Shown here in pieces: positions 1 to 19,868 of a DNA stretch of 64,000 nucleotides. Numbering within the stretch: position 1 is the first letter of the stretch; every line of letters begins with the position of its first letter. Source of the DNA: Bacteroidaceae bacterium (GTDB lineage Bacteria; Bacteroidota; Bacteroidia; Bacteroidales; Bacteroidaceae); NCBI GenBank assembly GCA_017965425.1, contig JAGCPY010000045.1:1-64000 (forward strand), read 5' to 3'. Made by a program: the position numbers and the translations under genes. The notes beneath the pieces were generated by a model that was given only the letters and a program-made list of their open reading frames with translations, was not told the origin of the DNA and searched no databases.

Positions 1-2173
1 ATATCAAATCCTTAAAATACCCAAAGTCACCATCAACCAATATCCTTCGATCGAGACCAACATTTCTTTTCTCGCACGAAGTCTCAGATACCATTGCACA
101 TGAGAAGCAAGCAGCATAATTCAACTGATCCTCGTTTTCCCAGCAGATTGGGTCTGAGGCACAGTTCATGGCCCTTTGCATTGCCTTACGAATAATATTC
201 TCTATCAATTCAGGCTGACCTTGCCAAACCAACCCGCCCATGCTTCCCTCAGCGCCATCTGTCGTATATATAAGTACTCCGCACATCCTGTTAGAGAAAT
301 ACAGTCGTTCACTCATACTAGCAGTTGGATAACCACAAGAGAACTCCAGTTCCTTCATCAGAATATGTGAGAATGTGTGAAGTACCAAGAATCTTGCTAT
401 TCCTCCAAGCGTCATCTCACGATAGATGCTCTCAAAGGTGTCGTCATGTTCACTCATGGCCTTATAATGCTCTTTGAACAAATCCTCATGGCTGCTCATC
501 CATGCTGACATGGTTTCTTCATTGAAGCTAAAGAAGAGGCCCTCACCAAAGCTCTGTACCGCGGGCATCGTCAAAACATCTTCTGGTGCTTCGCTGAATA
601 TCTTCATTCGATTGGGGTAATCAATTGTGCCATCGTCCTTCAATTCTGGCTGTGGCATACTGACACGCGAGAAATTGATCTGAGTATTACTTACGCCAAG
701 CGTACTTACTTGTTGTATTTTGTGGAAGTAATGAAGAAGAGGTTCTGGCAACTCAATATCATTGAATATCAGTTTGTCATTAGTCTCCAACGATTTGCTG
801 TTCTTTTGGAAAACCTCAAATTCCTCGAATCTGTACTGTTCACGAACATCGCCAGATTCATCGCCTTGTTCATCACCCAGAAACGCATTGATAACTTTTT
901 GTGCTTCATCCTCGCTTAGTGTGTAGTCGCTGTCATCGGCCTTTGAAATAACATACTCAATAAGGCTGTCAAAGTCATCCTCAAAGCAATGTTCCGAATA
1001 ATCCTGCTTAGTTGCCCCCGGATGCTTCTTTGTATATTTGTCAAACCACTTCTCTGTCATCAGTGTCAGCACCTTTTGCATCTTCTCATCCAGCACATTT
1101 GCTCCAGTCCTATAATCATCTGGAATGTACAGGCTACTGAAGTTCTCTGCATAATAAACACTATTACTTGTCACCAATGCCCATTTCATGGTCGATCGTT
1201 TGTTCTTCTGCATACATGCTGCATAATCCTGTTGGCCGATACCCTCCCATGGTTTGTCACCTGGGCACAATGGCTGTAGGTTCATGATACCTTCAAGGCT
1301 GACAGTCTTGCCACAACATTTGCATTTAAGCATACCAAAGCTCTCTGTATGACTACGGTTCTCCAACCATTGCAGTTCGTGTTCACCATTATTGTTTTCA
1401 GGGCAAGGGTCGCTTTCGTAGTTAAACAAATCGAAACCTTCTTCTGTCACCCGTTTCCCCTCATTGAGTTTTGCCGAGAAGTATTGTTGCCATGGAATAT
1501 CAGAGATATGTCCATTTGGACAAATCAATACCATTGAAGATTGTTCCAACAATTCATGGACTTTATTCTTTCCCTCTTGCAATCTTGGGTCATATAGTCG
1601 CCTGCCAGTTTTTGTGTAAGGGTCACGTGGTGGAGCAAAATATCTGAGATCACCGCCATTACAGCCTTTTTCTCTCCATATCTTCATCCATTCCTCTACA
1701 GGTTTAAAGTCCTTTTTGGTACGTGAGAAGAACCAGCGGGGGAAAACAATAGCTGGAATGGTAAATGTACTTTCCTCTAATTTACTGTTTGGATGTATTT
1801 CCTTGTATCTGATATTTGATGGATGCTCATCCACGTTACAACTGTTATAGGCGTCAAGGGAAATATGTGGAATAGCTACCAGACAACGCAGATGCGTCAT
1901 TCCCTCTGTCGCACGCAGGAACCCCACGAACCGATTATCATCTATTATTTCGACTCCTGTTTCCTCTGAAATCTTAGAAGCATTCAGAAGTTCAGAACTA
2001 TGCCTTTTCAAATACTCGGAGACAGCAGCCACGCTGCCCCATTTAGATGAGGTTAGTGGCATTACAAAGCCGCCCCATTTTGTAGCTACAATAGAGCCAA
2101 CACCTGCATTTGATGAAAGAACTTTGTACTTTCCAATGCCCTGATTGAATTGTCTTGTAGTCTTAATTTCCAT
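1..2173 (-). CDS. drmB: DrmB-like DISARM protein (DUF1998), 3' end outside window
   Basis: Open frame from an ATG at 2173 running without a stop to the left edge (about 724 residues seen). The N-terminus has the GVGSIVATKWGGFVMP segment near residue 23 typical of DrmB proteins. A zinc-type CKCC cluster (with a nearby W-x-x-R-S-H-T motif) lies near residue 280. The C-terminal part carries the DUF1998 signature: HTFSHILMKEL, then GVLIYTTDGAEGSMGGL, then a Cys group (CASDPIC, CFSC, SCEKRN) followed by LDR. Only a few residues should be missing. DrmB is a DISARM core protein that works with the DrmA helicase against incoming phage DNA. Its start overlaps the drmA stop by 11 bp, so the two are translationally coupled. 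Family assignment rests on motifs I recognise; a drmC or methylase gene would be sought just left of the window. Confidence 0.85.
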   Translation of the reverse strand, partial: MEIKTTRQFNQGIGKYKVLSSNAGVGSIVATKWGGFVMPLTSSKWGSVAAVSEYLKRHSSELLNASKISEETGVEIIDDNRFVGFLRATEGMTHLRCLVAIPHISLDAYNSCNVDEHPSNIRYKEIHPNSKLEESTFTIPAIVFPRWFFSRTKKDFKPVEEWMKIWREKGCNGGDLRYFAPPRDPYTKTGRRLYDPRLQEGKNKVHELLEQSSMVLICPNGHISDIPWQQYFSAKLNEGKRVTEEGFDLFNYESDPCPENNNGEHELQWLENRSHTESFGMLKCKCCGKTVSLEGIMNLQPLCPGDKPWEGIGQQDYAACMQKNKRSTMKWALVTSNSVYYAENFSSLYIPDDYRTGANVLDEKMQKVLTLMTEKWFDKYTKKHPGATKQDYSEHCFEDDFDSLIEYVISKADDSDYTLSEDEAQKVINAFLGDEQGDESGDVREQYRFEEFEVFQKNSKSLETNDKLIFNDIELPEPLLHYFHKIQQVSTLGVSNTQINFSRVSMPQPELKDDGTIDYPNRMKIFSEAPEDVLTMPAVQSFGEGLFFSFNEETMSAWMSSHEDLFKEHYKAMSEHDDTFESIYREMTLGGIARFLVLHTFSHILMKELEFSCGYPTASMSERLYFSNRMCGVLIYTTDGAEGSMGGLVWQGQPELIENIIRKAMQRAMNCASDPICWENEDQLNYAACFSCAMVSETSCEKRNVGLDRRILVDGDFGYFKDLI

Positions 2174-5100
2174 CGTTTCCTACTCTTATATGAAGCACAG
2201 CTTCTGGTTCAACAATACGTAGCGATTGTGGTACTGTCCACAGGTTATCACCATTGGAATCGTCATATCCTGCAGGGATGCTAAACAATGCCGCAGCATT
2301 TTGATACTGGGTTGAATTGTACACCAACCCATCTACTTCATTGGCTTTAGCCTCCCACTGACCTATAGCTTCATCAACAAACCGAATAATATTGTCTCTC
2401 AGTTCCGTGGTGAGAAGGCCCTTTTCCAACTGACTAATCTTCGGCTTTTGCATTCTCTCATATCGCTGGTTGAAGTAGTCGGCCACCATTTGTTTAATCT
2501 GGTCGCTCAGATTGCTTTCATTGATTTTGCTGGCACTATTACGATCTGCAAGCTTATCATAGGAGTGTCTCACTATGGCTGCCAAATATAATGCAAGGTA
2601 TTTCTCAACAGATTTCTTAGAGAATGGCGTTATTGAAATTGGCTCTACATAGAAATACAGCTTTTCGTGGAATTCCCGGAACTTTTCATAGTGTGATACA
2701 TCTCTTGAACGGAAAGGATTGTGAAGAGTCAATACAAGTCCTTTCTGCTCACGAGCCACACGGGAACTAGCCTGAATGTACTCGGCAATGTTTCTTGGCA
2801 TGGAGTTCATGATGATGGTGTTAAACCTACCGACATCCAAGCCAACAGAAATCATGTTGGTAGCTAAAATATAGTCTGGGGGAGTGCTCCCTTTAACCCA
2901 TTCCCCATTCTCTTTATGAGGAAGTCGTTTCTCAATGCTCCAATCCTGACCTACCTCTGCAAACTTTTCATTCACCTCGGCACCTGTCAGACGACCAGAC
3001 AATTCAGCCTCACTCAACTCGTTCATTGAATAAAAGCACTCTAACAGATTTCCAAATGGCATAACGCGTTTGAATAAGCGACGCACATACTTTGAATACT
3101 CTGTATAGAACAGCGCATCCGTCTTGCCAACCTCTTTCAGACTATTGAAGTAAGATATAACCGAATAGTAGTTGTTAGCGGCAAACTCAAATCCTGAGTC
3201 CTGTGAGTGTCCTGCTTCGAAAATAGCTCTATGTACTAACAGTATCGCGGCAAGACGCATCTGTGTTGTCATTTGCGTTCTGCCTGTCGGCATAATCCCG
3301 ATGTATTTGCGCTTTGATATGTATTTCTCCAGACCATCCTTCTTCTCTCTTTTGTAAAAGGCAAAGAAGGAATCATCATAGTCAACTCCATTATGGGGGA
3401 AGATATTTAAATCCCTATCATATAGGGCACGAATCTGTAAATCAGTATTGCGAGTCGTGGCAGTAGAGGAAATGATTTTGGGCCTTGTACCGTCTTCTCT
3501 TGTACAAAGTTGGTCTATGGCACATTCAAAAAGGCTCACTGCTGAACCTAATGGGCCTAACAACAAATGTAACTCATCTTGGATAATGAGATCTGGCGGT
3601 AGGCAATGAATGCCTTGACCGAAAATGCGGCGAGAATCTTTGTTCTCTTCATTTTTCTTTGTCGATACCCTGTGTGCTATTGCAGCAAACTTGTCTACTG
3701 TACCGAACAACAACGTTGGTGGCTCTTTGTAGATGTGTTCATCGCAAAGCCGTACAGGCAACTCATCAGAGAATGTACATGAATCATTTTCGTTAGAACA
3801 AAAATATGTTTTCTTTTTTGATGAATACTTCAATTTTGAACCACACCAAGGGCATCTGTCTAAAGGTATCTTTGTCTTGTTTTCACCATCCTCTCGATTA
3901 TTCCATTTTATTGATTCATCATCCAGTCCATCCTTTCCATCAACTTTGTTCGGAAGGGAATTAGAACCCACATATAAACCTATAGAGATAGGCTTTGCGC
4001 CTAAATTGTATTCTTCTTTTTTCTTGCCCCATCTACGCATCTGTTCCAAAGCCAAGATAAGTCGCAATGCTCTCTGAAATTGTTGAGTCGTCAACAGACG
4101 AAGTGTATATCTCATTATCGCAGCAACTCCATATCCTTTTTCACCATACATCCTGCGTCGATAGATGATACATAACGCTATGATTCCAAGGTAGGCCTCA
4201 GTCTTACCACCACCAGTTGGGAACCAAACCAGATCAACTAAGTCATTACGCTTTTTCCAACCATTATCTTGTGGATGGTTGATGATGCCATCCAAGTTTA
4301 ATAGAATAAAAGCCAACTGGAAAGGTCGCCATGCAGCATGAGGAGAAGAAGGGAATATATTGTCTTGTGCTTGTTTGTAGAATGTCTCATTCAAATTCGG
4401 ATCATCATTAATAACTATTTTCTGATTATCCTTCTTGTTATGCCATAGCTGCATAAACATGGCAGAATTCATCAATCTGAAACAGAGCATATTCTCTTTT
4501 TTACCCGAGAGGATATTGTCAACATTATCTTTCATGCGCTGCATGTCACTTTTGCATTTAGATAAATTATCCAATGCAAATGCCCAGTCATTGTCATTTG
4601 TTATGCGTGCTTCATTTTGAGCAATCCAATCCCCATATAGACCTATGAAATCCTTTAATCCAGAAACTATCTCTGAGTCTTTAGCATCAGAAAAAGTGGA
4701 TAAGTACTTAAACTGAAGACATCTATCATCTGTTAAATATGGTTGGGGAATAATCATGTCTCCCTCTTTAATATATTCACTATACTTTTTTCTGGGAATA
4801 GGTTCAATGTCTGGAGTTTCGAAAGAGGGAATAAATTCAGACCAGATGTGATAAACGTTCCCATCAGCATCCTTTTCCCAATCAACAGAACAGAGGTGTC
4901 CCACTCCGTAATCATTAATGGAACGATATAAGAAATTCAATTTATCCTCGTCTTTCTTTACATCCTGGTAAGTATTACCTTCGTGATACGGGCACAGAAA
5001 CTTACTCTTAAGATCAATATGAATTCCGAAGAAACATAGTTTGTTAACTTCTTCATTAACAATTGAAAAATAGTTCTTTGGAGATTCACGGAATGGTGAA

Positions 5101-6272
5101 GAATCGTTCACAATCAAAACCTTTAGATATAGATTTTGGTCTGTCTTATCCTTACTATTTCTTGTCACTTGCAACCAAGCCGACAATGCGACTTTTTTAC
5201 CTTCTTCCAAGTCTGCGGAAAAGAAATGGTTTAATGTATCATTGTCTTTTGGCTTAAATATCTGTTTTGCAACATTGCCACTTTCTGATTTAATTCCATC
5301 CAGATTTATAGTCGTACTGAAATCATGGGATTGCCAGAAACCAAAACCTTTATGGTCATAAAGCTCTATAAGGTTATCAAAATAGGACAGGAACGTTTCA
5401 TACATTTCAACTTTTTCCAGTTGATTAAGGACTCGCTGTTTTTCTTCATCTGTGAGATATAATGGTATATCATGGTCGTCACTGTCTTTTTCATAATGAA
5501 TATGATTAAGATATTTGTTGAAAAGGACTTCACGATATGAAAGTAAGAATCTGTAATTTTGAGGAATCTGAGTAAAAATCTGATCGGTCTCACCATCAAT
5601 CACGGCCAAGTTCGCGGCACAATTCATATTCATTGTGCGAAGCATGTCTTTAACCTGTGATACATTCTTGTTGGGGATTGGGTATATTTTAAGCTTACCT
5701 TCGTTATAGTTGAAATATTGGTGAAGAATAGGATTCTCTGTAAAGAACTGCTCAAACTGAGCAAGATGGTCACCTATTAAGACCTGAACCCTTTGCTTAT
5801 CACCGCGGACAATTTTGGTATAATATCTTCCCGATACCGTTATTACCACATCTTTCGATAAACTTGCCTCTGGAAGCAAGCAACATGAGATACCTACTGT
5901 ATTAGGAAATCTTCTGCTTAAAGAATAGACATCTTCATCATCTACTTCGTTTCCTAAATCTCCATTCTGTTCGTTACTATCACTACGCAGAAGTTCATCG
6001 TCATCTTCCTGACCATTCGTTGATACAGTTTCATCGTCAATATCTGCTTCGTCAGATGCGTCTTGTGAGGCAAACATGCCCAGAGCTTTGGGAGGGAAAA
6101 GTACAGCCGTGCTATAAATCGAACCAGGGGTTGTGTTAATCACTTCTCCATCGAATGATTGGCCTTCTTCCATTTCTATGGAAAAACGACCTCTACACCC
6201 ATTGGGGCCTATCATTTGCTCACGGATGAAAGACTCCAAAGATTCTCTTTTAATATCAATTATGTTATTCAT
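2163..6272 (-). CDS. drmA: DrmA-like DISARM helicase (SF2)
   Basis: 1369 aa. Helicase motifs are clear: Walker A in VWFPTGGGKTEAYLG (about residue 680), a DELH box in IIQDELHLLLGPLG (about 897), the motif III-like ISSTAT, then ATNMISVGLDVGRF and the motif VI-like QASSRVAREQ (about 1165). A CPWCGSKL...C...C zinc knuckle sits between Walker A and DELH. The WFPTGGGKTEAYL and QDELHLLLGPLG strings are characteristic of DrmA. An acidic low-complexity stretch (DEADIDDE, DDDELL, EVDDEDV) lies near residues 70-115. In DISARM, DrmA and DrmB form the DNA-engaging core that senses or blocks phage DNA. The gene starts 1 bp after the upstream 807-aa gene and overlaps drmB, so all three belong to one transcript. 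Confidence 0.88.
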   Translation of the reverse strand: MNNIIDIKRESLESFIREQMIGPNGCRGRFSIEMEEGQSFDGEVINTTPGSIYSTAVLFPPKALGMFASQDASDEADIDDETVSTNGQEDDDELLRSDSNEQNGDLGNEVDDEDVYSLSRRFPNTVGISCCLLPEASLSKDVVITVSGRYYTKIVRGDKQRVQVLIGDHLAQFEQFFTENPILHQYFNYNEGKLKIYPIPNKNVSQVKDMLRTMNMNCAANLAVIDGETDQIFTQIPQNYRFLLSYREVLFNKYLNHIHYEKDSDDHDIPLYLTDEEKQRVLNQLEKVEMYETFLSYFDNLIELYDHKGFGFWQSHDFSTTINLDGIKSESGNVAKQIFKPKDNDTLNHFFSADLEEGKKVALSAWLQVTRNSKDKTDQNLYLKVLIVNDSSPFRESPKNYFSIVNEEVNKLCFFGIHIDLKSKFLCPYHEGNTYQDVKKDEDKLNFLYRSINDYGVGHLCSVDWEKDADGNVYHIWSEFIPSFETPDIEPIPRKKYSEYIKEGDMIIPQPYLTDDRCLQFKYLSTFSDAKDSEIVSGLKDFIGLYGDWIAQNEARITNDNDWAFALDNLSKCKSDMQRMKDNVDNILSGKKENMLCFRLMNSAMFMQLWHNKKDNQKIVINDDPNLNETFYKQAQDNIFPSSPHAAWRPFQLAFILLNLDGIINHPQDNGWKKRNDLVDLVWFPTGGGKTEAYLGIIALCIIYRRRMYGEKGYGVAAIMRYTLRLLTTQQFQRALRLILALEQMRRWGKKKEEYNLGAKPISIGLYVGSNSLPNKVDGKDGLDDESIKWNNREDGENKTKIPLDRCPWCGSKLKYSSKKKTYFCSNENDSCTFSDELPVRLCDEHIYKEPPTLLFGTVDKFAAIAHRVSTKKNEENKDSRRIFGQGIHCLPPDLIIQDELHLLLGPLGSAVSLFECAIDQLCTREDGTRPKIISSTATTRNTDLQIRALYDRDLNIFPHNGVDYDDSFFAFYKREKKDGLEKYISKRKYIGIMPTGRTQMTTQMRLAAILLVHRAIFEAGHSQDSGFEFAANNYYSVISYFNSLKEVGKTDALFYTEYSKYVRRLFKRVMPFGNLLECFYSMNELSEAELSGRLTGAEVNEKFAEVGQDWSIEKRLPHKENGEWVKGSTPPDYILATNMISVGLDVGRFNTIIMNSMPRNIAEYIQASSRVAREQKGLVLTLHNPFRSRDVSHYEKFREFHEKLYFYVEPISITPFSKKSVEKYLALYLAAIVRHSYDKLADRNSASKINESNLSDQIKQMVADYFNQRYERMQKPKISQLEKGLLTTELRDNIIRFVDEAIGQWEAKANEVDGLVYNSTQYQNAAALFSIPAGYDDSNGDNLWTVPQSLRIVEPEAVLHIRVGNDGN

Positions 6273-6273
6273 A

Positions 6274-8697
6274 TCATGATATAGTTACGACGTTATTCAT
6301 TTTTATTTCATTGCGAAGTAATGATTGCAAGGCGGCTAAATCGTCAACATTACGGAGGTTTAGTAGGTCATTTATATCGCTATCTTTATAGTCATCATAC
6401 AAATCTTCATCAACATCAGCTAACAAAGTGTCTTGTAGAAATTGATCCATCATGCTATTGAATCTCCTTGTACCGTTCTTCGTGGCAGCCTTTTTACTTC
6501 TCATTATTGAAAGATACGGGGACATAAGTCCAAACCCTAAATACTCAAAGAGCTTCTGTTGACAAACTTTTTGCAAAGGTAGAATCATGTTCGAAGTCAA
6601 ATCAGCCCAGTGACAGAATTGGCTCTTTTGTATTCTATTTGACTCTTTTAATCCCCTCATGACTGACTCATATGCATTGTCAAGTCCTTCTTCTTCTATC
6701 TTCTTGGAAAGGAGAATCTTCCACAAAATAACAGTCGAATCACGCTCTTCTGCAGTTATCTTTCCCTGTTTGTACTGTGATTCCCGAATTACCTTTTCGC
6801 GCTGGTCATAATCTTCCGATTGTCTATCTATGAAGGACTTGAGTTCATTTGCGATGTCATCCAATTTCTGCAGTTTTTTAATTTCATGGAGAATCCCTTT
6901 TTTCTTTATCTCAGTTAGTCGGGCTATTTGAGCTACACCATTATCTGATTCGTAGATGACAAAGTCTGTCTCGGGGATATTAAATTTACTGCCATCATCA
7001 AATTCTCCCTTGACATATACAACTGCTCGTGATATGCTGCGTTCATCACTAAATTCGTATTCTCCCTTTGTTCTTCTTACAGAAGGCTTAACAGGACGTG
7101 GCACTTTTCCAAAAAGTGTGTTTCTTAGTTCTGAATCCAACAAATCTGCTTTGTATTTATCGTAGTCGTATTTATCCCATTCATACATGTCATTAAATGC
7201 TACTCCTTGTATAATGTCATGAATGAATTGGTCTTTACGTACAGGTATAGGGTCAAAAGAATTTGGGAACTTTGCATATGACTCTCTAACATAATGGGGA
7301 CGATATTGCAGAACTATTACAAGATTTTCTTTAATAGCATTATTCCCATTTATTGGCTTTAAAGCAGAGTAGTCGTAATACTTCACCTCTAATCGTGGAG
7401 AATATTCCTGTAGGCAAGTTGTTAATGCTCTTTTCATGGACAAATCAATGCTCTTATCCAATACAATAGCTATTTTTAGTTTTTCTCCGAACTCATCTCG
7501 GGTTTGGCTCCTTATCAGTTTTTCCTTAATGATACAATTGTGAATTATCGGTTTAACTGCCTTGGAGGCCCTTTCTAGCTGCCATTCTATTGACATTTGA
7601 TAGTCTTCGTCATTATAATCAGGAAAAGATTTGTGAAGATAACTTGAGTATAGAGATATAAGTTCGTCACTTAGGCATAAAGAGAAACGGTTACGCTCTT
7701 GAATTCTATATTCCGATTCATCAAGTAACGAACCAAGCACATCGGAAAACAGTAATTGGTCATCAGGGATAAAAATGTGCTCATATGAGTTGTTCCTACC
7801 AAACATATAGTTGCTCTCATCCTCGTCGAAAGTAATGTAATGGGGATATTGGTAGAATTCTTTCTCATTTACCATGGGGAATTTACGACAGAAACCAATC
7901 CCTTTGCTTATAGAATGACGAAGATGGAACGGTTTTTTTGAGAAAGCAAAGACGAAACAGTTCTTTAATCCCATCTTGTATGCAGTATTCCAGCGTTCGA
8001 GTGAGCTTTCTTCTAACGAATTGATTTTGTCGTTATTAGTATAAAATACAAAAAGGTTATCCACCATAACATACTCATCATCTCTTTTGTGCTCTCTTAA
8101 CTGGTCTCGTATATCGTCAGCATCGAGATTATGGCACATAACCAAGTTCTTTTCAGTAAAGATATTGTCGGCTTCACCATAGAACTCGGAGATGAATTTA
8201 TGCTTATCAGCTCTGGATACTTGCAAATCTCCTTCTCCGCAAATAATTATGTTCTTGTGTCCTTTCTCGCCAGAATAATTATCTGTTATACTACCCAATG
8301 TTTGTCGGATGTATTTGGCACATGGGACAGCGTACTGTTTCATGTGTTTTGCTTCTTCTTTAGTTCGAAGCACGATATTACGCATTGACGCAACTCTTCT
8401 TTTGAGAAGCTCTCTATTATCATCGTTGTAATACAAAGACAACTTTAGAATAAGGAATTTCAACCACACTTCGCGAGCCCATTCTGGGGCATGTGGCATA
8501 TAGATGATGGGGAAACAGATTTCTCCATCTTCTGCCTTCCTATTCATATAATAGTCCACAATGCTGTTCATCACGTTTATGAATCTACGAGCCGATTCCT
8601 TTTGTGTATGAACCATCGCATTGATGATGGAATCGACCTCTGCAGATGATTGGTTGGCAATATTTTTAAATTCTTCTGTCATAGGAGCCGATATCAA
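6274..8697 (-). CDS. 807-aa protein, DrmE-like candidate
   Basis: No catalytic motif that I can name. It is a soluble, charged protein without a signal peptide or membrane segments; the last 70 residues are very acidic (DVDEDLYDDYKDSDINDLL). Its size and place directly before drmA fit DrmE, the protein of unknown function found in class 2 DISARM, but I recognise no diagnostic string, so this is inference from position and length. The ATG overlaps the stop of the NERD-helicase gene (4-bp ATGA) and the stop is 1 bp before drmA, which ties it firmly into the operon. A middle segment (KIAIVLDKSIDLSMKRAL, about residues 410-430) could be a beta-alpha nucleotide-fold element. Confidence 0.5.
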   Translation of the reverse strand: MISAPMTEEFKNIANQSSAEVDSIINAMVHTQKESARRFINVMNSIVDYYMNRKAEDGEICFPIIYMPHAPEWAREVWLKFLILKLSLYYNDDNRELLKRRVASMRNIVLRTKEEAKHMKQYAVPCAKYIRQTLGSITDNYSGEKGHKNIIICGEGDLQVSRADKHKFISEFYGEADNIFTEKNLVMCHNLDADDIRDQLREHKRDDEYVMVDNLFVFYTNNDKINSLEESSLERWNTAYKMGLKNCFVFAFSKKPFHLRHSISKGIGFCRKFPMVNEKEFYQYPHYITFDEDESNYMFGRNNSYEHIFIPDDQLLFSDVLGSLLDESEYRIQERNRFSLCLSDELISLYSSYLHKSFPDYNDEDYQMSIEWQLERASKAVKPIIHNCIIKEKLIRSQTRDEFGEKLKIAIVLDKSIDLSMKRALTTCLQEYSPRLEVKYYDYSALKPINGNNAIKENLVIVLQYRPHYVRESYAKFPNSFDPIPVRKDQFIHDIIQGVAFNDMYEWDKYDYDKYKADLLDSELRNTLFGKVPRPVKPSVRRTKGEYEFSDERSISRAVVYVKGEFDDGSKFNIPETDFVIYESDNGVAQIARLTEIKKKGILHEIKKLQKLDDIANELKSFIDRQSEDYDQREKVIRESQYKQGKITAEERDSTVILWKILLSKKIEEEGLDNAYESVMRGLKESNRIQKSQFCHWADLTSNMILPLQKVCQQKLFEYLGFGLMSPYLSIMRSKKAATKNGTRRFNSMMDQFLQDTLLADVDEDLYDDYKDSDINDLLNLRNVDDLAALQSLLRNEIKMNNVVTIS

Positions 8698-10472
8698 TTT
8701 GGCGAGTTAACTTTGTCAAGAAGTAATATTTCAAGATCAAACATTGCACGAGTCATTCCGACATACAGTTCAAACTTGTCTATTTCTTCCCGGTTGTTTA
8801 ACACTAATAGCACATGCTTTGTTTCAAGCCCTTTGTAGGACAAGATTGTTGTTAGGCATAGTCTGTCTTCTTCATATTTGACATTCTCAGGCTTTAACTC
8901 CTTTATAAGTTCAATATCAGAAAGGCGTTCAAATAGCTGTTTGTTATGGGAGTCCGTCAAGACAACATACTCTGACCATTTCTTTTCCCCACTTCTCAAA
9001 GCGGTTAGGAGGGCTTTTATATGCTTAACCAATTCGTTAGTCCCTTGGTAGTGATGAATTTTTATTGCTGGGTCATTTCTTCCTTCAAGATCTCTTATTA
9101 TTATGGAAGTCTGTGTTCCGTCTTCACTTTCCAAAATCTTGTTGGCTACATCAACAATCTGCTTATTATTAGGAACTCTTTTGTTCTCATTCAAAACGAA
9201 ATGAGTTCCATATCGCGAAATGTCTTCCGAGTAACTATCTAATTCTCGGATGTCTTTTCTATATCCCTGCTCAGTATCGAAGAAAACAAGGTATCTACCT
9301 GTTCCAAGTCCATTACCGTTAATAGATGTAAGTGAATTTAGGACTTCCGCAGCACCTTTGTCAAAAATGTCTTGCGCTTCATCAATGACAATAAAATCAT
9401 ATGGGATAAAGTCATCTGATTCGCGAAGTGTGTCAAACAGTCGCTTCATTTTCTCAATAAGAGATGAAGAACCTTCCTGAAAATCATCGAAGGTGACAAA
9501 CTTGTGAATTGGGTCCAGTTTCAAGATGAATGAAATAAACTGATATACTTCGCAATTCTCCAGCCCGACCTTCAGCAGCTGGTTGCGTACCGTCGCTGCC
9601 AGAAGATTATTCCAGCAAATATAAACGCCCCGTAAGGACTTATATCTACGGATAAATGCTTTCGCTATGGTTGTTTTACCAGTACCCGGCCCTCCCTCGA
9701 TAATGATGCGATTGTTTTTCTCCAGACTCTTAAATGTATCGAGATTCTGTATGTTCAGCCAGTCAAGAATGCTTTGGTAACTAGTTTCTGTGTAGTTGAA
9801 ATCAGGACGAATGTTCGCGACTAGATGATGAATTGCAATATCTACCTCAGTTGGCTTCAAATCCTTAGTAATCCAATGTTTCTTCTCTTTGTCAGTGCAA
9901 AGCACAGATAGACAGAATTCGGCAAAAGACTCTGATTGATTTTCCTGTTGGTATGCAGACCACAATTTATATCCCATATCCAACTTGGGAAGATGGTTCG
10001 TGTGAGCAATCTTAGTGTGTGGGAACGCACATACTGTGTCTATAAAGATTTGGTTGCTATTAATAATCTTGTTGTTCAGCAACGCATATTTGTAGTCTTC
10101 AGCTTGCTGGAAAGGCGACCTTTCCATAGTCATCCCCTCTCCTTTGCTAAAGAAGAACTGACCATTTTGGATACCAACGTTACCACCTTTTACTTCAACA
10201 ACGAGTGCCCCTCTTTCACACACTAAGAAGAAGTCAATTTGAATCTCGGATTGTCTGCTATTACCAATGGGTAAACGCAAATCATGCCAAAAATGCCACG
10301 TAAGACTACTTTTTTCACAATCTTTCCATATCCTGCGATACATGTCTATTTCACCATATAATGGCGTTCCATCATTATGTTTGATGATGGTTTCCAAATT
10401 ATTTAGGTTTTTATAGTCATGACTTATAATTGGCATATATCTATTATCTCTACTCCCAAAGTTTGGGATCAT
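8694..10472 (-). CDS. NERD nuclease-SF1 (UvrD/Rep-like) helicase fusion
   Basis: 592 aa. N-terminal NERD domain (about residues 38-130): GE near 40, then QIDFFLVCERGALVVEVKGG, which supplies the D...E-x-K of a PD-(D/E)XK-type nuclease. A SF1 helicase/ATPase follows: Walker A GGPGTGKTT (about 257), Walker B FIVIDEAQD (about 361), FFDTEQ, LTTILSYKGLE and the motif VI YVGMTRA (about 569). NERD-helicases are known in bacterial defence and DNA-processing loci. The start at 10472 overlaps the radical SAM gene by 23 bp; an internal ATG at 10436 would avoid the overlap. It overlaps the next gene by 4 bp. Neither class 1 nor class 2 DISARM as I know them includes this gene, so here it looks like an additional or substitute effector. 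Confidence 0.82.
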   Translation of the reverse strand: MIPNFGSRDNRYMPIISHDYKNLNNLETIIKHNDGTPLYGEIDMYRRIWKDCEKSSLTWHFWHDLRLPIGNSRQSEIQIDFFLVCERGALVVEVKGGNVGIQNGQFFFSKGEGMTMERSPFQQAEDYKYALLNNKIINSNQIFIDTVCAFPHTKIAHTNHLPKLDMGYKLWSAYQQENQSESFAEFCLSVLCTDKEKKHWITKDLKPTEVDIAIHHLVANIRPDFNYTETSYQSILDWLNIQNLDTFKSLEKNNRIIIEGGPGTGKTTIAKAFIRRYKSLRGVYICWNNLLAATVRNQLLKVGLENCEVYQFISFILKLDPIHKFVTFDDFQEGSSSLIEKMKRLFDTLRESDDFIPYDFIVIDEAQDIFDKGAAEVLNSLTSINGNGLGTGRYLVFFDTEQGYRKDIRELDSYSEDISRYGTHFVLNENKRVPNNKQIVDVANKILESEDGTQTSIIIRDLEGRNDPAIKIHHYQGTNELVKHIKALLTALRSGEKKWSEYVVLTDSHNKQLFERLSDIELIKELKPENVKYEEDRLCLTTILSYKGLETKHVLLVLNNREEIDKFELYVGMTRAMFDLEILLLDKVNSPN

Positions 10473-11862
10473 TTAAGTTAGACATCTTATAGTTAAACAT
10501 CTCCAGTAGTTCCTCTCGATGTTCAGGAAACATCTCCAGTGTATCAAGTAAGGTCTGCAAGGTCTTGCAAATCTTTCGGACTTTACCTCGCGAATCTTCT
10601 CTATCGTAATATCCGGTTTCATAATCCCTTAAGAACTCCTCATATGGTTTGACGGGCTTAAGAACTTCAAAACCTGCGCCTTGTTCCCAGAACGTTTGGT
10701 TACGATAAGAATATTCCCAGAACGACATCTTCTTGTAGAAGGCCTGCTGATTACACCAGCGGGCAATCTGAATATACAAGTTTGAAATCGGAGCGTTATG
10801 GTAGTCTTCGTGACGCATTAGGTAACCCACACAACCGTATGTCATCAACACCTTAATGCGTTGGAAGATTTCCCATATATCACGATAGAATTTCTGATAG
10901 CCTTGCTCTGTTTGTTTAAATCCGCAGAACAGGTAGAATTTTGTACCTTTTTGGGGATTGTAATGCTTCCAGATCTTTAGGGCTCTTTCTATTAGTGGAC
11001 GGTCTTTCCAATTATCAAAGGCAAAGATAAAGTCACCATGATATTTCGTCTTCGAAAGCATCTCGGCCATCTCCTCACCATGAGGGCTTTGTGCCAGCAT
11101 ACGCTCGTCAAGCCCTTGACGGAACTGAAAAGGTCGTCCCGTGTTTATCAGCTGTTGCAGCTTGGCACGCCAAATGGCAGGGTCGGCAGCAAGGAAGTTG
11201 TCATCCCATAGATAGATATATGGGCGCACCAATCGACCTTGTTCATCACGTTCTTCATCGAGAAACCATTCAAGATCGGAATAGGGGAATATCTTATCTT
11301 CCAACTTGTTGATGCAGAAGGGGCAATGACGGATGCAACCACGTGTCAGAAAACCAATGCTGTATTGTTGGTAGTCTTTGTACTTATCACGTTTAAAGCC
11401 CTCAGCCACCTTTCGGTCAACAAAAGAATCATAAAGATGATAGTAGGGCATTTGGCGAGCTAGATCAATACCATTCTTTCGAGGGCCGCCACGATGATTG
11501 GGATATTGGCAAAGGAACTCATCACGTTCCAACTGAGTCATATCGTCATCGCGTTTCTGACGGTAGATATTCACATTCAACTCATTTGCATAGAAGCCAG
11601 TGCCACCCCTACGGAATTTGCGTTTCTGAGCGGGAGTAGCATTCTCATAAAAGGCTGGCATCTGTGTGAACGTAAATACTCGGGAGATGTAGATCAGTTT
11701 GTAAGGCGTGATGTCTTCGTCCTGATCAATAATCAGCTTGAAGTCAATGCCGTTGTCGTTGAGGAAGCCTGCCAGTTTCATCAAGACAAGATTAGGATGC
11801 CGTGTCCCGTTGCAAAGCAGGTCGGCATCCACAAGTCCTATCTTGAGTTTCTTTTTTGGCAT
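10450..11862 (-). CDS. Radical SAM protein of unknown substrate
   Basis: 470 aa. The 4Fe-4S binding motif is TRGCIRHCPFC with Cys176, Cys180 and Cys183 (CxxxCxxC), followed by WDDNF and DGE-like strands of the radical SAM barrel (QGLDERML about residues 255-265). The first 70 residues (KIGLVDADLL, YKLIYISRVF) look like a degenerate B12-binding-type Rossmann domain, as in MiaB/BchE-like proteins, without a visible DxHxxG motif. There is no SPASM-type Cys cluster at the C-terminus. It is not viperin-like (no CNYKCGFC). It lies 6 bp after the 91-aa gene and overlaps the NERD-helicase by 23 bp, so it is co-transcribed with the DISARM-like genes. Substrate and role are unknown. Confidence 0.8.
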   Translation of the reverse strand: MPKKKLKIGLVDADLLCNGTRHPNLVLMKLAGFLNDNGIDFKLIIDQDEDITPYKLIYISRVFTFTQMPAFYENATPAQKRKFRRGGTGFYANELNVNIYRQKRDDDMTQLERDEFLCQYPNHRGGPRKNGIDLARQMPYYHLYDSFVDRKVAEGFKRDKYKDYQQYSIGFLTRGCIRHCPFCINKLEDKIFPYSDLEWFLDEERDEQGRLVRPYIYLWDDNFLAADPAIWRAKLQQLINTGRPFQFRQGLDERMLAQSPHGEEMAEMLSKTKYHGDFIFAFDNWKDRPLIERALKIWKHYNPQKGTKFYLFCGFKQTEQGYQKFYRDIWEIFQRIKVLMTYGCVGYLMRHEDYHNAPISNLYIQIARWCNQQAFYKKMSFWEYSYRNQTFWEQGAGFEVLKPVKPYEEFLRDYETGYYDREDSRGKVRKICKTLQTLLDTLEMFPEHREELLEMFNYKMSNLNDPKLWE

Positions 11863-11868
11863 ATAGGC

Positions 11869-12144
11869 TTAGTTCATTACAAGGTCGCCCTTGTGCAGAC
11901 ACACAAGATAATTATCGTCAATCAGTACCAGCGCATCCGTTTCAGGGACTGACCACTCCACTAGCTCACCAAAACCCATATCTTTTGCTTCGCAAGCGTG
12001 CACTTCTCGCCAACCCTTCGTGTTGGCCAATTGCTCCAATGTCTTAGCGGTTTCTTCCTCCACCAAATCCATCAGGCAACTCCACTCCTGATACATCCCG
12101 CCAGCGGGAATCGTTATACTTGCTTTTGGCATATTTTGAATCAT
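11869..12144 (-). CDS. Small protein of unknown function at the head of the DISARM-like operon
   Basis: Up to 91 aa; a second ATG at 12132 would start MPKASITIPAGGMYQEW and is equally plausible. No signal peptide, membrane helix or motif that I recognise. It is acidic in the middle (VEEETAKTLEQLA) and ends in beta-rich LVLIDDNYLVCLHKGDLV. It precedes the radical SAM gene by 6 bp, so it is probably translated with it and may be an accessory factor or a substrate. The gap of 67 bp to the winged-helix gene upstream contains no promoter that I can call with confidence. Confidence 0.6.
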   Translation of the reverse strand: MIQNMPKASITIPAGGMYQEWSCLMDLVEEETAKTLEQLANTKGWREVHACEAKDMGFGELVEWSVPETDALVLIDDNYLVCLHKGDLVMN

Positions 12145-12211: not shown

Positions 12212-12721
12212 CTATGGTGCAATTATTTCCCAGTGTCCCCCTTTATCTGGGCCAATGCGACGGATAACACCTTGTTCCTGGAGTTTTCTTAGGTGCTCTT
12301 GCACGTTGCGAGATGCAATATCTATTTCTTTAGAAATGGACAGTGCCGTCGCGTTGGGATTCTTCCAGATAATTCTAACAATTTTTGCTCGCGTCGTAGA
12401 TAATTTTTCTACGATGCTATCTACGATGTTTTCTGTGATGTTTCCTGCGATGTTTTCTACGACATCACCGCCAACTTTACCGCCAGTTTTACCGCCAGCT
12501 TCGTTGGTATAGCTCTGTGAGACCTTCACCTCAACCTTGAATGCTGTGATAAGGTTAACGTTGAACTCTGCGGGTTGGTTGCCATTTTCCTTCAAGTCCG
12601 TCACGTCCTGACACGGCAATACCTCGTCGAGAATCATGATGGCCCAGGGATAGCTGTCCGCCTTCCCCGAATTCTTCGGAGAAAGCCTGGTATTGAAATA
12701 TATAAAACCATTCCTGTCCAT
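12212..12721 (-). CDS. Winged-helix DNA-binding protein with repetitive linker
   Basis: 169 aa. The C-terminal 70 residues form a winged helix (TTRAKIVRIIWKNPNATALSI, then helix-turn-helix through NVQEHLRKLQEQGVIRRIG, ending GGHWEII). This resembles the C-terminal module of Bacteroidota AlbA/Schlafen-type ATP-binding regulators, which often carry a Gly/Thr repeat linker; here residues 75-107 read GGKTGGKVGGDVVENIAGNI and so on, encoded by imperfect 12-15-bp DNA repeats at about 12410-12495. The first 70 residues match nothing I know and no ATP-binding motif is present, so this may be a shortened family member. Possible regulator of the downstream operon (inference from position). Confidence 0.6.
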   Translation of the reverse strand: MDRNGFIYFNTRLSPKNSGKADSYPWAIMILDEVLPCQDVTDLKENGNQPAEFNVNLITAFKVEVKVSQSYTNEAGGKTGGKVGGDVVENIAGNITENIVDSIVEKLSTTRAKIVRIIWKNPNATALSISKEIDIASRNVQEHLRKLQEQGVIRRIGPDKGGHWEIIAP

Positions 12722-12826
12722 GTTGTTATTGCTTTGTTATGTTTCCTTTTATGTTAAAACTTAACTCGTTTTCATTATCATGTTAAAGAATCTGTATTTT
12801 TTTAACTCGTACTTCTTTACGTGTTA
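12722..12826 (-). promoter_or_regulatory. Spacer with direct repeats, candidate operator
   Basis: AT-rich gap between the Fic gene and the winged-helix gene. The 8-mer TTAACTCG occurs twice in direct orientation (12761-12768 and 12802-12809), 41 bp apart, each near GTTAAA(A/G) copies. This could be a binding site for the winged-helix or XRE protein. No clear TAnnTTTG box was found. Confidence 0.3.
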
Positions 12827-14029
12827 TCATTTTGTAATATCATTAACATGAACAGATTCTATCACCTCTGCTGGTTCTGTTGCTTTATACTGGCCAAACT
12901 CGATGAAGAGATTCATCAGGCGGGTGTTGATATAATAGTTCTCCTTGCCCATTTTTTCTTTCTTAAGAAGACCTAGAGCCACAATTCTATCCAGATACTT
13001 CGAGGCTGTCTGACGAGATACTTGCATATTGGCTACAACATGGTCAATCTTGGTATAGGGGTGATAGAACAGGCCGTTCAGCAATTCATGATTGTATTTG
13101 CTGCCAAAGTCTGGACGAATAACATTCTTATATTCTGCCATCAAGCGACCTATGTTCTTGACCAAAGAAATCGTATCCTCTGCAGTTACCTCTACACCCT
13201 TCAACATAAAGAGGATCCAGGCTTCCCATTCTGCGGCATTATCAGTATTCTTGCCCCTGATAGCTTGTATCAGTCGGTAGTACTCTCCTTTGTTGTGAGT
13301 GATGTATCGACTAAGATAGAGGATGGGCAAGTCAAGCAAGCCAGTGATTACCAGATAGAGGATATTGATAATGCGACCTGTGCGGCCATTACCATCATAG
13401 AATGGATGGATGCTCTCGAACTGATGGTGTATGATGGCCATCTTGATTAGCGGGTCAAGTTGGCTCAAATGGTCATCATTGATGAACTGCTCAAGATTGG
13501 ACATATACTGGACGATGGCCTTTCCGTCCTGCGGAGGTGTATAGATTACAGCGCCATCATTTTCACGCTTCAACTGGGTTCCTGGTGTTGTGCGGAAGCC
13601 TGCGGTATTCTGTTCCAAGATTTCTTGAACATGCTTAATGTCGTTGAGGGTGAGGATGTCTTTGTTTCGCACCATACGGAATCCCTCGTTGATGGCTTCA
13701 CGATAGAAAAGTACCTCTTTTGTGGCAGCATTAATGAACTGATGGCTTGGATCAAGCCCTGCACGATACAAATCATCCTGAGTAGTCACGATATTCTCCA
13801 CCTCAGAGCTATCCTTGGCTTCTTGCAAGGTAAGGCTGCTAATGAGAATGCGCTCATTGGGTATGGTTTGTGCCACACCCTTCAACTCTGCCAGTTTGCG
13901 GTTTGCCCTGTTCAACTGCTTCAGAACCTCTTTGGTCTCCAAATCGTATGGAAGAGGTAAGGAGGGAATCGAGTATTTTTCTTCTTTCCTTATCTCATCA
14001 GCTGGATTTGTTATATCTTGATTGCTCAT
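12827..14029 (-). CDS. Fic family AMPylase with N-terminal inhibitory motif
   Basis: 400 aa. The Fic catalytic loop is HPFYDGNGRTGR with His208. An inhibitory helix motif S-x-x-x-E-N (Ser74 to Asn79, in SSEVEN) lies N-terminal, as in class II Fic proteins that are auto-inhibited. The C-terminus (about 320-375) has a winged helix (HVVANMQVSRQTASKYLDRI). Fic enzymes transfer AMP, or other nucleotides, to target-protein hydroxyls. The catalytic and inhibitory residues look intact, so it is probably active but restrained. It follows a small XRE regulator; such pairs are common in mobile and defence regions. Target unknown. Confidence 0.9.
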   Translation of the reverse strand: MSNQDITNPADEIRKEEKYSIPSLPLPYDLETKEVLKQLNRANRKLAELKGVAQTIPNERILISSLTLQEAKDSSEVENIVTTQDDLYRAGLDPSHQFINAATKEVLFYREAINEGFRMVRNKDILTLNDIKHVQEILEQNTAGFRTTPGTQLKRENDGAVIYTPPQDGKAIVQYMSNLEQFINDDHLSQLDPLIKMAIIHHQFESIHPFYDGNGRTGRIINILYLVITGLLDLPILYLSRYITHNKGEYYRLIQAIRGKNTDNAAEWEAWILFMLKGVEVTAEDTISLVKNIGRLMAEYKNVIRPDFGSKYNHELLNGLFYHPYTKIDHVVANMQVSRQTASKYLDRIVALGLLKKEKMGKENYYINTRLMNLFIEFGQYKATEPAEVIESVHVNDITK

Positions 14030-14070
14030 ATTATGATGTATCTATTTTACTTCTATTCGTCTTCTTACAA

Positions 14071-14193
14071 TCAATTCATCAACTGGGGACAAACTGGGGA
14101 CAAGACTTGTGACAAAGCTTGTGACAAACTTGTGACGTCATCTTCTAAAGAGACCATACGCAGCAGTTCTTGTATTTCGTCTATTGTTATCAT
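14071..14193 (-). CDS. Possible 40-aa protein between xre and fic
   Basis: A short open frame (MITIDEIQELLRMVSLEDDV, then a repetitive LSQALSQVLSP tail, stop at 14071) begins 5 bp after the XRE stop. The tail is coded by near-repeats of TTGTCACAAG and TTGTCCCCAG. The first 20 residues look like a real amphipathic helix. Equally, the repeats could be a recombination trace. Only position and start-codon context support it. Confidence 0.3.
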   Translation of the reverse strand: MITIDEIQELLRMVSLEDDVTSLSQALSQVLSPVCPQLMN

Positions 14194-14198
14194 TCGAC

Positions 14199-14414
14199 TT
14201 ATTTCTCTTGATTGAATTCTTCCTGTCTCACCAACTCCTGCACAGGCACTTCAAGCGCATTGGCTATTGCAATGAGGGCTTCAAGGCTGGGTTGGGTGGT
14301 ATTGGTGACCCACTTTGACACAGTAGCAGGATCCTTGCCGAGTTTGTCGGACAGCCACTTATTGTTCAGGTCGCGTTCTGCGAGAACGACTCTTATACGA
14401 TTTAACTTTGCCAT
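14199..14414 (-). CDS. XRE family transcriptional regulator
   Basis: 71 aa, essentially a single HTH_3 domain: helix 2-turn-helix 3 in NKWLSDKLGKDPATVSKWVTN, followed by QPSLEALIAIANALEVPVQEL, the standard Cro/C1 core. The length is that of a bare DNA-binding regulator. It is the first gene after a good -7 box and is followed by the possible 40-aa gene and fic, so it probably autoregulates that operon. Confidence 0.9.
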   Translation of the reverse strand: MAKLNRIRVVLAERDLNNKWLSDKLGKDPATVSKWVTNTTQPSLEALIAIANALEVPVQELVRQEEFNQEK

Positions 14415-19235: not shown

Positions 19236-19868
19236 TTAATAACTAAGTTCTTGAAGAAATAGCTGGATCGCCTCCACGTTTTTTTGAGCAGGAGCAATTT
19301 CAAAACGGGAGTTGAGATCGATGCCAATGCATTTAGGATGACGAAAGTTGCGGATGCGTTCTGTGTCGTTGGGACCGATGCCGCCACTGAGCAGGAATGG
19401 TGTCGTGCCGTGATAAGCGGAAAGTACACTCCAGTCAAACCGCTCACCGCTGCCTCCAGGCAACAGAGTTTTGGTGTCAAAGAGAAAGTAGTCGGCAACA
19501 TCCTCGTATGCTTTTGTTCGTGCAAGGTCAGCAGCGGTGGAGATATTGAAGGCTTTTATGATTTTCCATTCTTGTAACTGACGGACGTATTCGGGTGACT
19601 CGGAACCGTGTAGTTGGATGAAATCGAGGGCGAAATCATTGGCTACACGCTTCACCTTTTCTATATTTTCATTGACAAACACTCCGACACGATGACATTT
19701 TTCCGGCAAGTAGGCGGGTAACTCGGCTACATAGCGGCGGCTGCTAAGCCAGAAAATAAAGCCCATAAGGTCTATGCCATAGGTCTTTCCTTCAGAGTTT
19801 GTTACGCGAAGATTTTCAACAGCACGAATGTTTTCAGGATCGCGCATACCACAGACTTTAATAATCAT
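19236..19868 (-). CDS. trpF: Phosphoribosylanthranilate isomerase
   Basis: 210 aa. Starts MIIKVCGMRDPENIRAV with the catalytic Cys in KVCGM; FVNENIEKV, DFIQLHGSESPEYV, FLLSGGIGPNDTERI and GIDLNSRFE, including the catalytic Asp. Isomerises phosphoribosylanthranilate. The start overlaps the trpC stop by 4 bp. Confidence 0.95.
   Translation of the reverse strand: MIIKVCGMRDPENIRAVENLRVTNSEGKTYGIDLMGFIFWLSSRRYVAELPAYLPEKCHRVGVFVNENIEKVKRVANDFALDFIQLHGSESPEYVRQLQEWKIIKAFNISTAADLARTKAYEDVADYFLFDTKTLLPGGSGERFDWSVLSAYHGTTPFLLSGGIGPNDTERIRNFRHPKCIGIDLNSRFEIAPAQKNVEAIQLFLQELSY

Follow-up and report, generated by a model that had tools for sequence, protein, structure and literature searches.

We found that positions 1–12144 of the window, a 64,000-nucleotide stretch of DNA from a Bacteroidaceae bacterium (contig C38 of its genome), carry on the minus strand a compact DISARM-family operon in which a 470-aa radical S-adenosylmethionine (SAM)-like protein, hereafter rSAM, stands where the nearest relatives have a DNA methyltransferase. 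This DISARM-related cluster recurs across genomes, and its composition suggests a new self-marking chemistry. Besides rSAM, the operon encodes a NERD nuclease domain fused to a superfamily 1 (SF1) helicase (hereafter NERD), an 807-aa protein that we call X, the DISARM proteins DrmA and DrmB, and a 91-aa protein, p91.

Gene content of the operon and its place in the DISARM family

Open reading frame (ORF) calling placed the six genes in a single row, namely p91 (11869–12144), rSAM (10450–11862), NERD (592 aa, 8694–10472), X (6274–8697), DrmA (1369 aa, 2163–6272) and DrmB (724 aa, 1–2173). The operon is real and complete; the DrmB stop codon lies just beyond the window edge, on the joined contig C94, whose final 141 bases are window positions 1–141. 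As originally predicted from this DNA, there are gaps of 6 bp (p91/rSAM) and 1 bp (X/DrmA) and overlaps of 23 bp (rSAM/NERD), 4 bp (NERD/X) and 11 bp (DrmA/DrmB), the 23-bp value arising because the NERD start was taken at 10472. The NERD ORF of the close relatives L033 and L032 begins ~12 codons later, leaving gaps of 9–13 bp, and judged by these relatives the window NERD more likely also starts ~12 codons further in.

DrmA and DrmB, which the original prediction had recognized by motif in what it called a DISARM-like locus, were backed by profile models. DrmA matched its PADLOC model at 8e-176, aligned with the solved DrmA 7s9v (7e-103), and reached 725 bits with the NCBIfam DrmA model, below the cut-off of 950. 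DrmB, an MZB/DUF1998-type protein encoded by a separate gene adjoining drmA, scored 287.8 bits with NCBIfam DrmB_fam (cut-off 240) and 1.1e-54 with PADLOC. The locus belongs to the DISARM family. The predicted NERD nuclease-SF1 helicase matched Pfam PF08378 at 1.5e-12 and has the D..EVK, Walker A, DEAQD and GMTRA motifs, and motif reading found the helicase motifs intact in the complete copies of the operon described below. The predicted radical SAM protein contains a CxxxCxxC motif (RGCIRHCPFC) that all 50 aligned members of the family share without exception, and matches phrog_9298, annotated “radical SAM domain protein”, at 1.8e-34; its operon position and its exclusivity with C5 methyltransferases also entered into its assignment as a proposed self-marking DNA modifier. 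p91 had no family match in PADLOC, Pfam, NCBIfam or PHROG searches. Sequence searches of the PDB returned no relative of rSAM or X, and weak ATPase-region matches for NERD.

X occupies the usual place of DrmE and had been described as DrmE-like. Its size and neighborhood are indeed those of DrmE, but homology was not detectable: X had no match to NF038316 or Pfam DrmE_C and no significant match to one DrmE in hhalign (local mode). The identification of X as DrmE was thus rejected, since no model or hhalign comparison gave a significant match. By contrast, X has a homologue in related operons that carry a C5 methyltransferase, hereafter C5-type operons, namely their 828-aa protein (hhalign E 3.2e-32). 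We noted weak C-terminal matches, roughly co-linear, between the X of C5-type operons and DrmE 613–741 (E 0.28), and between X and a 792-aa protein of Haliscomenobacter (E 0.024). Judged from these alignments, a very remote link between X and DrmE may exist.

Class 2 DISARM (DrmMII, DrmE, DrmA, DrmB, DrmC) shares with the window operon DrmA, DrmB and an ~800-aa protein encoded before DrmA. A further link is that the C5 methyltransferase of a sister operon (G304) matches DrmMII at 6.1e-96; that of G029 matches DrmMII at 3e-21, although type II methyltransferases match it better. The window operon differs from class 2 in having rSAM for the methyltransferase, an added NERD-helicase, no DrmC, and an X that is not detectably DrmE. 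The original prediction had proposed reading to the left of the window for drmC or a methylase. Neither was seen in the 20 kb that we read there, and this stretch refuted the idea that the window edge cuts a standard class 2 DISARM. A DrmC PLD nuclease was absent from the operon as well as from these 20 kb, and the DrmC_I model gave, across the whole genome, a single 31-bit match on another contig (cut-off 133). The DrmE model had no match in the window’s genome, nor did PF00145 or PF01555; DrmMI and DrmMII had none among the scanned operon proteins (PADLOC, Pfam, NCBIfam), and the SNF2-like helicase DrmD had none among nine proteins scanned (PADLOC).

The NERD-bearing C5-type DISARM operons (G361, G304 and G217; L046–L052 and L054) share the NERD-SF1 helicase, DrmA and DrmB with the window operon, and differ from it in that a C5 DNA methyltransferase, not rSAM, is in first place. 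L046–L052 also have its gene order and X, and G361 has a true DrmE (603 bits). TALON and ARMADA have a YprA-type helicase in common with the window operon, and TALON also a NERD nuclease, according to their description (Bell et al. preprint, PMC12458937), which defines TALON by NERD, YprA helicase, TPR-CSD and TBP genes; Pfam found no TPR-CSD or TBP domains in the window operon proteins. Within the open-access literature searched, we found no description of NERD or radical SAM genes in DISARM.

Recurrence of the operon and exchange of the rSAM gene

We scanned 84,980 species genomes with a five-sequence NERD alignment; the counts that follow are of the matches listed. The scan yielded at least 29 loci, at least 25 of them true relatives; L057–L060 were left out (E 4e-5 to 1e-4, 29–38% identity over 83–111 residues, unrelated contexts). 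Among the 25 listed loci, rSAM lies upstream of NERD in 16 (L032–L044, L053, L055 and L056), directly so in 14 of these, with one extra gene intervening in L043 and L044. A 568-aa C5 DNA methyltransferase lies directly upstream of NERD in another eight (L046–L052, L054). The remaining locus, L045, has neither upstream; its C5 methyltransferase gene lies on the opposite strand, 60 bp past drmB. Hence, with flanks of 64 bp to 10 kb and mostly less than 1.5 kb covered downstream of drmB, none of the 25 listed loci has both rSAM and C5, and none has neither. If rSAM counts as a modification gene, the nuclease gene is paired with one in 25/25.

The order NERD-X-DrmA-DrmB was kept except at contig ends and in decayed copies, and ten rSAM-NERD-X-DrmA-DrmB operons are complete (the window, L033, L035, L037–L041, L043 and L044), with gaps or overlaps of mostly a few bases. 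The original prediction had proposed a search for the gene order, and rSAM, NERD, X, DrmA and DrmB indeed occur in the same order in many lineages; the pattern that the prediction had named as evidence against itself, a complete standard class 2 set just outside the window with the NERD and radical SAM genes absent from most homologous loci, is therefore not what we see. Its claim that all six genes act together is too strong, because the p91 gene is optional. phmmer found a p91 homologue in just 5/19 rSAM loci (L032, L035, L044 and L055 among them), several contigs ending close upstream, and a sixth was recognized by eye in L043.

The other copies run into contig ends or are damaged: the rSAM frame is interrupted in L032 and the DrmA frame in L034 (where the NERD frame is open over 583 codons), L055 keeps part of NERD, and G259 (= L011) is a remnant with rSAM, NERD and a 207-aa stub of X. 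Near-duplicate loci are L032 and the window, L036 and L038, L039 and L040, and L053 and L011. The hosts are labeled mostly Bacteroidota (L041, with a complete operon, is from Dysgonomonas sp. 520); two metagenome-assembled genomes (L043, L055) are labeled Bacillota and may be misassigned. A record from human feces labeled “Bacteriophage sp.” (MT837356.1, L026) carries rSAM-NERD-X and looks like bacterial DNA. Among plasmid records, X and the DrmE of G361 had no match, and NERD and rSAM had two and five distant records, respectively.

The pairing of NERD with a modification gene also appeared in an order-level sample of 393 genomes, in which DrmA was found at E ≤ 1e-60 in 18 and the context was read for all 18. 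Contig ends excluded four of them: in G012 and G357 the contig begins with DrmA, and in G391 and G070 a single upstream gene is visible. NERD is present in six DrmA loci (G000, G029, G298, G361, G304 and G217; in G298 the two genes sit at the ends of separate contigs), each of which carries rSAM or C5. By contrast, the eight NERD-free DrmA loci with at least two upstream genes (G020, G145, G114, G057, G344, G338, G086 and G017) have neither rSAM nor C5 in the operon, and phmmer gave no C5 or N6 methyltransferase match for any of them. The chance of such a split (6/6 vs 0/8) is 1/3003, before allowing for kinship. A motif scan noted an NPPY motif in NERD-free G338, in a gene behind an opposite-strand gene. 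Six NERD relatives were found in this sample with the window NERD as query; four lie in such operons, one is the G259 remnant, and one (G026) is not in such an operon. When rSAM was searched for in the 393 genomes, both operon-type matches (G000 and G259) came with NERD.

Comparison of close loci showed that the rSAM gene has been exchanged between operons. The window and L033 are 93% identical in NERD and X and 92% in DrmA and DrmB, but 66% in rSAM; conversely, rSAM is 83% identical between the window and L037, against 51, 30, 56 and 53% for NERD, X, DrmA and DrmB. In 250-bp bins, DNA identity between the window and L033 drops from 87 to 61% at window position 10450, the rSAM/NERD junction. 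The approximately unbiased (AU) test rejected window+L032+L033 as an rSAM clade (p 6e-66), and window+L032+L037 (p 2e-4) and window+L032+L055 (p 2e-68) as NERD clades; these p values are optimistic because the groups were picked after the trees had been seen. Spearman correlations of pairwise identities (36 pairs, nine loci) were 0.31–0.47 between rSAM and the other genes and 0.60–0.82 among the others. In C5-type operons the methyltransferase closely tracks NERD, so it is rSAM in particular that is exchanged. Among the genes of the C5-type operons, X varies most (L046 and L047 are 47% identical in X, vs 93% in NERD and 94% in the covered part of DrmA). L045 and the rSAM and C5 groups meet at an open fork in the NERD tree. 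The more distant NERD loci G361, G304 and G217 carry C5, which suggests, without proving it, that C5 came first.

The proposed self-marking role of rSAM and its alternatives

We give an even chance to the view that the operon is a DISARM-family restriction system in which rSAM has replaced the methyltransferase as the self-marking DNA modifier and the NERD-helicase stands in DrmC’s place. DrmAB would load on foreign DNA ends and translocate, reading and loading on those ends that are unmarked; the NERD-SF1 helicase would then unwind and cut the DNA in place of DrmC. rSAM would write a SAM-radical-dependent modification on host DNA, such that DrmAB and NERD spare self, and X may be a fast-evolving accessory protein, perhaps a sensor or adaptor. 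One DISARM study describes DrmAB as set off by 5′-overhang DNA, its ATPase activity as reduced on 5-methylcytosine DNA, residue V1296 of DrmA as contacting a base, and DrmC as often missing and dispensable (PMC9142583). V1354 of the window DrmA aligns with V1296. By motif reading, this residue is V in the window, L033, L035, L037, L039 and L040, L in L041, and I in L038, L043, L044, the five C5-type operons whose sequence covers this end and, apparently, L045. The site thus stays hydrophobic without being invariant, and does not separate the rSAM type from the C5 type.

Somewhat more tentatively, at a little short of an even chance, we propose that rSAM writes a non-classical base mark, that it displaced C5 and moves between operons as a module for the mark or the specificity, and that phages use the family in DNA-protection cassettes. 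The original prediction of a methylation-independent variant would then probably be half right: because rSAM occupies the place of C5 in the nearest relatives, the DNA is most likely still marked, by other chemistry. If rSAM does mark DNA, restriction-type immunity has a self-labeling chemistry other than conventional methyl transfer, and Bacteroidales probably contain a DNA base that has not been described; the presence of the rSAM family beside DNA methyltransferases in phages could then be explained as well. The proposal makes testable which nuclease and which mark are used by DISARM systems that have neither DrmC nor a methyltransferase.

Phage proteins of phrog_9298 belong to the same family as rSAM (38–40% identity for two phage copies) and have the same cysteine motif, but are typically ~340–440 aa in length. 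Searches of viral_contigs with X or a two-sequence rSAM alignment gave no confirmed relative, whereas an alignment led by a phage copy succeeded. Among the best 80 of 122 confirmed loci, 75 were annotated (L062, L063, L066, L081 and L094, where ORF calling did not recover the rSAM gene, were left out). These proteins often adjoin DNA methyltransferases. In the Oscillospiraceae phage NatCom_21982, the gene for the rSAM relative overlaps its neighbors on both sides: upstream, one annotated as a DNA methyltransferase, and downstream, one annotated as hypothetical whose product looks like a C5 methyltransferase. Further neighbors recognized by Pfam were C5 methyltransferases next to L107 and L118, ThyX together with an N6_N4 methylase near L096, and the N-terminal domain of a SAM synthetase next to L085. 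No NERD, X or DrmAB was recognized alongside the phage proteins, the neighbor classification covering methyltransferases only. A DNA methyltransferase is a direct neighbor in 35 of the 75 loci and in 13 of 34 clusters at 75% identity, and methyltransferases fill 50 of 147 neighbor places vs 24 of 721 other genes; these rates are upper estimates because the query was seeded from a methyltransferase-linked clade.

That last limit, together with the 21 of 34 phage clusters that lack a direct methyltransferase neighbor (phmmer), is one of several points that weigh against a self-marking rSAM. Of the proposed chain, we show the genomic side: which genes are present, their order and recurrence, the mutual exclusion of rSAM and C5, the pairing of NERD with a modification gene, the exchange of rSAM and the conserved catalytic motifs. 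We infer that DNA is the substrate of rSAM, that the resulting modification serves as the self mark and that NERD is the effector nuclease. The Pfam radical SAM model was reached by nine of the 50 family members (best 0.0016), all below its cut-off, with no match for the window rSAM at 0.1. Other methyltransferases are present: the window’s genome has seven PF02384 matches over the cut-off, one of them inside the window (41150–41824), and one weak, marginal PF02086 match above it. Among nine genomes with rSAM operons, a C5-type enzyme is encoded elsewhere in six and an N6_N4-type enzyme in three, so DNA could also be marked in trans. Two loci depart from the pairing of NERD with modification genes: a motif scan found a methylase-like NPPF motif in a gene that lies several kb upstream in NERD-free G086, and no methyltransferase gene directly precedes a Rhodococcus opacus plasmid operon (207-507-NERD-DrmA-DrmB), the closest annotated one lying ~3 kb downstream, beside NaeI. 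Lastly, the rSAM and C5 operons form separate groups in the DrmA tree, with a minimum of two label changes when L045 is given its own state. One modification enzyme was probably exchanged for the other in one or two events, and the 25 loci are therefore not independent observations of exclusivity.

Proteins and peptides are frequent substrates of radical SAM enzymes, and we consider it possible, though unlikely, that rSAM is needed for maturation of the complex because it modifies one of its proteins (X, DrmB, NERD or p91), with self and non-self told apart by DNA-end structure alone. The p91 gene immediately precedes that of rSAM in the window, L035, L044 and L055, and DrmAB recognizes 5′-overhang structure, according to PMC9142583. 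However, p91 was found in just 5 of 19 rSAM loci, the C5-type operons have homologous NERD, X, DrmA and DrmB without rSAM, and protein maturation would leave both the exclusion of C5 and the DNA methyltransferase neighbors in phages unexplained. Peptide-type maturation of p91 was considered as a leading interpretation and set lower.

There is a slim chance that the product of rSAM is a diffusible antiviral compound, such as a viperin-like modified nucleotide, which would form a second effector arm. The PADLOC library includes viperins, yet no PADLOC model matches rSAM, and such a product would not explain why rSAM sits in the methyltransferase slot or why the two are mutually exclusive. In favor of this idea, prokaryotic viperins are radical SAM defense enzymes, as stated in PMC12926258.

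Equally improbable is a role of rSAM on tRNA or other RNA, or in the repair of nuclease damage, that would protect the cell rather than mark DNA. Modification of tRNA and rRNA and repair of DNA lesions are well-known activities of radical SAM enzymes; nevertheless, the phage relatives cluster with DNA methyltransferases, ThyX and the SAM synthetase domain being single cases. Already disfavored and the least probable is the idea that the operon is an ordinary divergent DISARM served by a methyltransferase encoded elsewhere in the genome, with rSAM and p91 as passengers: the operon has defense-type neighbors (Fic, Xre and winged-helix genes) and its genome other DNA methyltransferase families, but the ten complete and tightly spaced operons argue against it, as does the L040 genome (2.3 Mb, completeness not stated), which has no PF00145, PF01555, PF02384 or PF02086 match.

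Neighboring genes and other NERD and DrmAB arrangements

Just upstream of the operon, window positions 12212–14414 encode a winged-helix ORF (169 aa), a Fic protein of the SoFic type (400 aa, PADLOC SoFic 4e-118) and an Xre-type regulator (71 aa). Similar Xre-type ORFs lie upstream of rSAM in L033, L036, L038 and L044. On the other side of the operon, in the joined contig, ~0.6 kb devoid of long genes separates drmB from a 98-aa ORF, after which comes dnaK; between this ORF and drmB, near the contig break, are two imperfect copies of ~130 bp (L003, ~19300–19860). Farther into the window, the N6_Mtase match at 41150–41824 belongs to a 766-aa ORF (40340–42640) between a recA-like gene and a dehydrogenase gene. 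This ORF has nuclease-like and target-recognition-like parts by eye and is perhaps a one-gene restriction-modification enzyme.

The gene that intervenes between rSAM and NERD in L043 (2115–2792) and L044 (9295–10011) encodes a protein of 225–238 aa without a Pfam match, and is an insertion in one sub-clade. NERD-free DrmAB loci of the order sample encode a protein of either ~490 aa (L174, L175, L183 and L184) or ~790–830 aa (L176, L177, L179 and L182), with no methyltransferase in the operon. The G070 copy of the ~490-aa protein matches Pfam DrmE_C at 1.4e-5, just below the cut-off, and a ~298-aa gene precedes the gene for this protein in three of four loci. The ~790–830-aa protein is related to the Haliscomenobacter protein. 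In G026 (L020, 8773–11569), a NERD-helicase relative without DrmA adjoins an opposite-strand gene near whose start we noted, by eye, a DPPY DNA methylase motif. Another YprA-like and NERD arrangement was seen on a plasmid of Leisingera sp. S132 (L010, 2512–10539), where a 2094-aa DEAD/DEAH helicase with weak similarity to DrmA is followed directly by a NERD-SF1 helicase, with a gene for an SNF2-related protein nearby.

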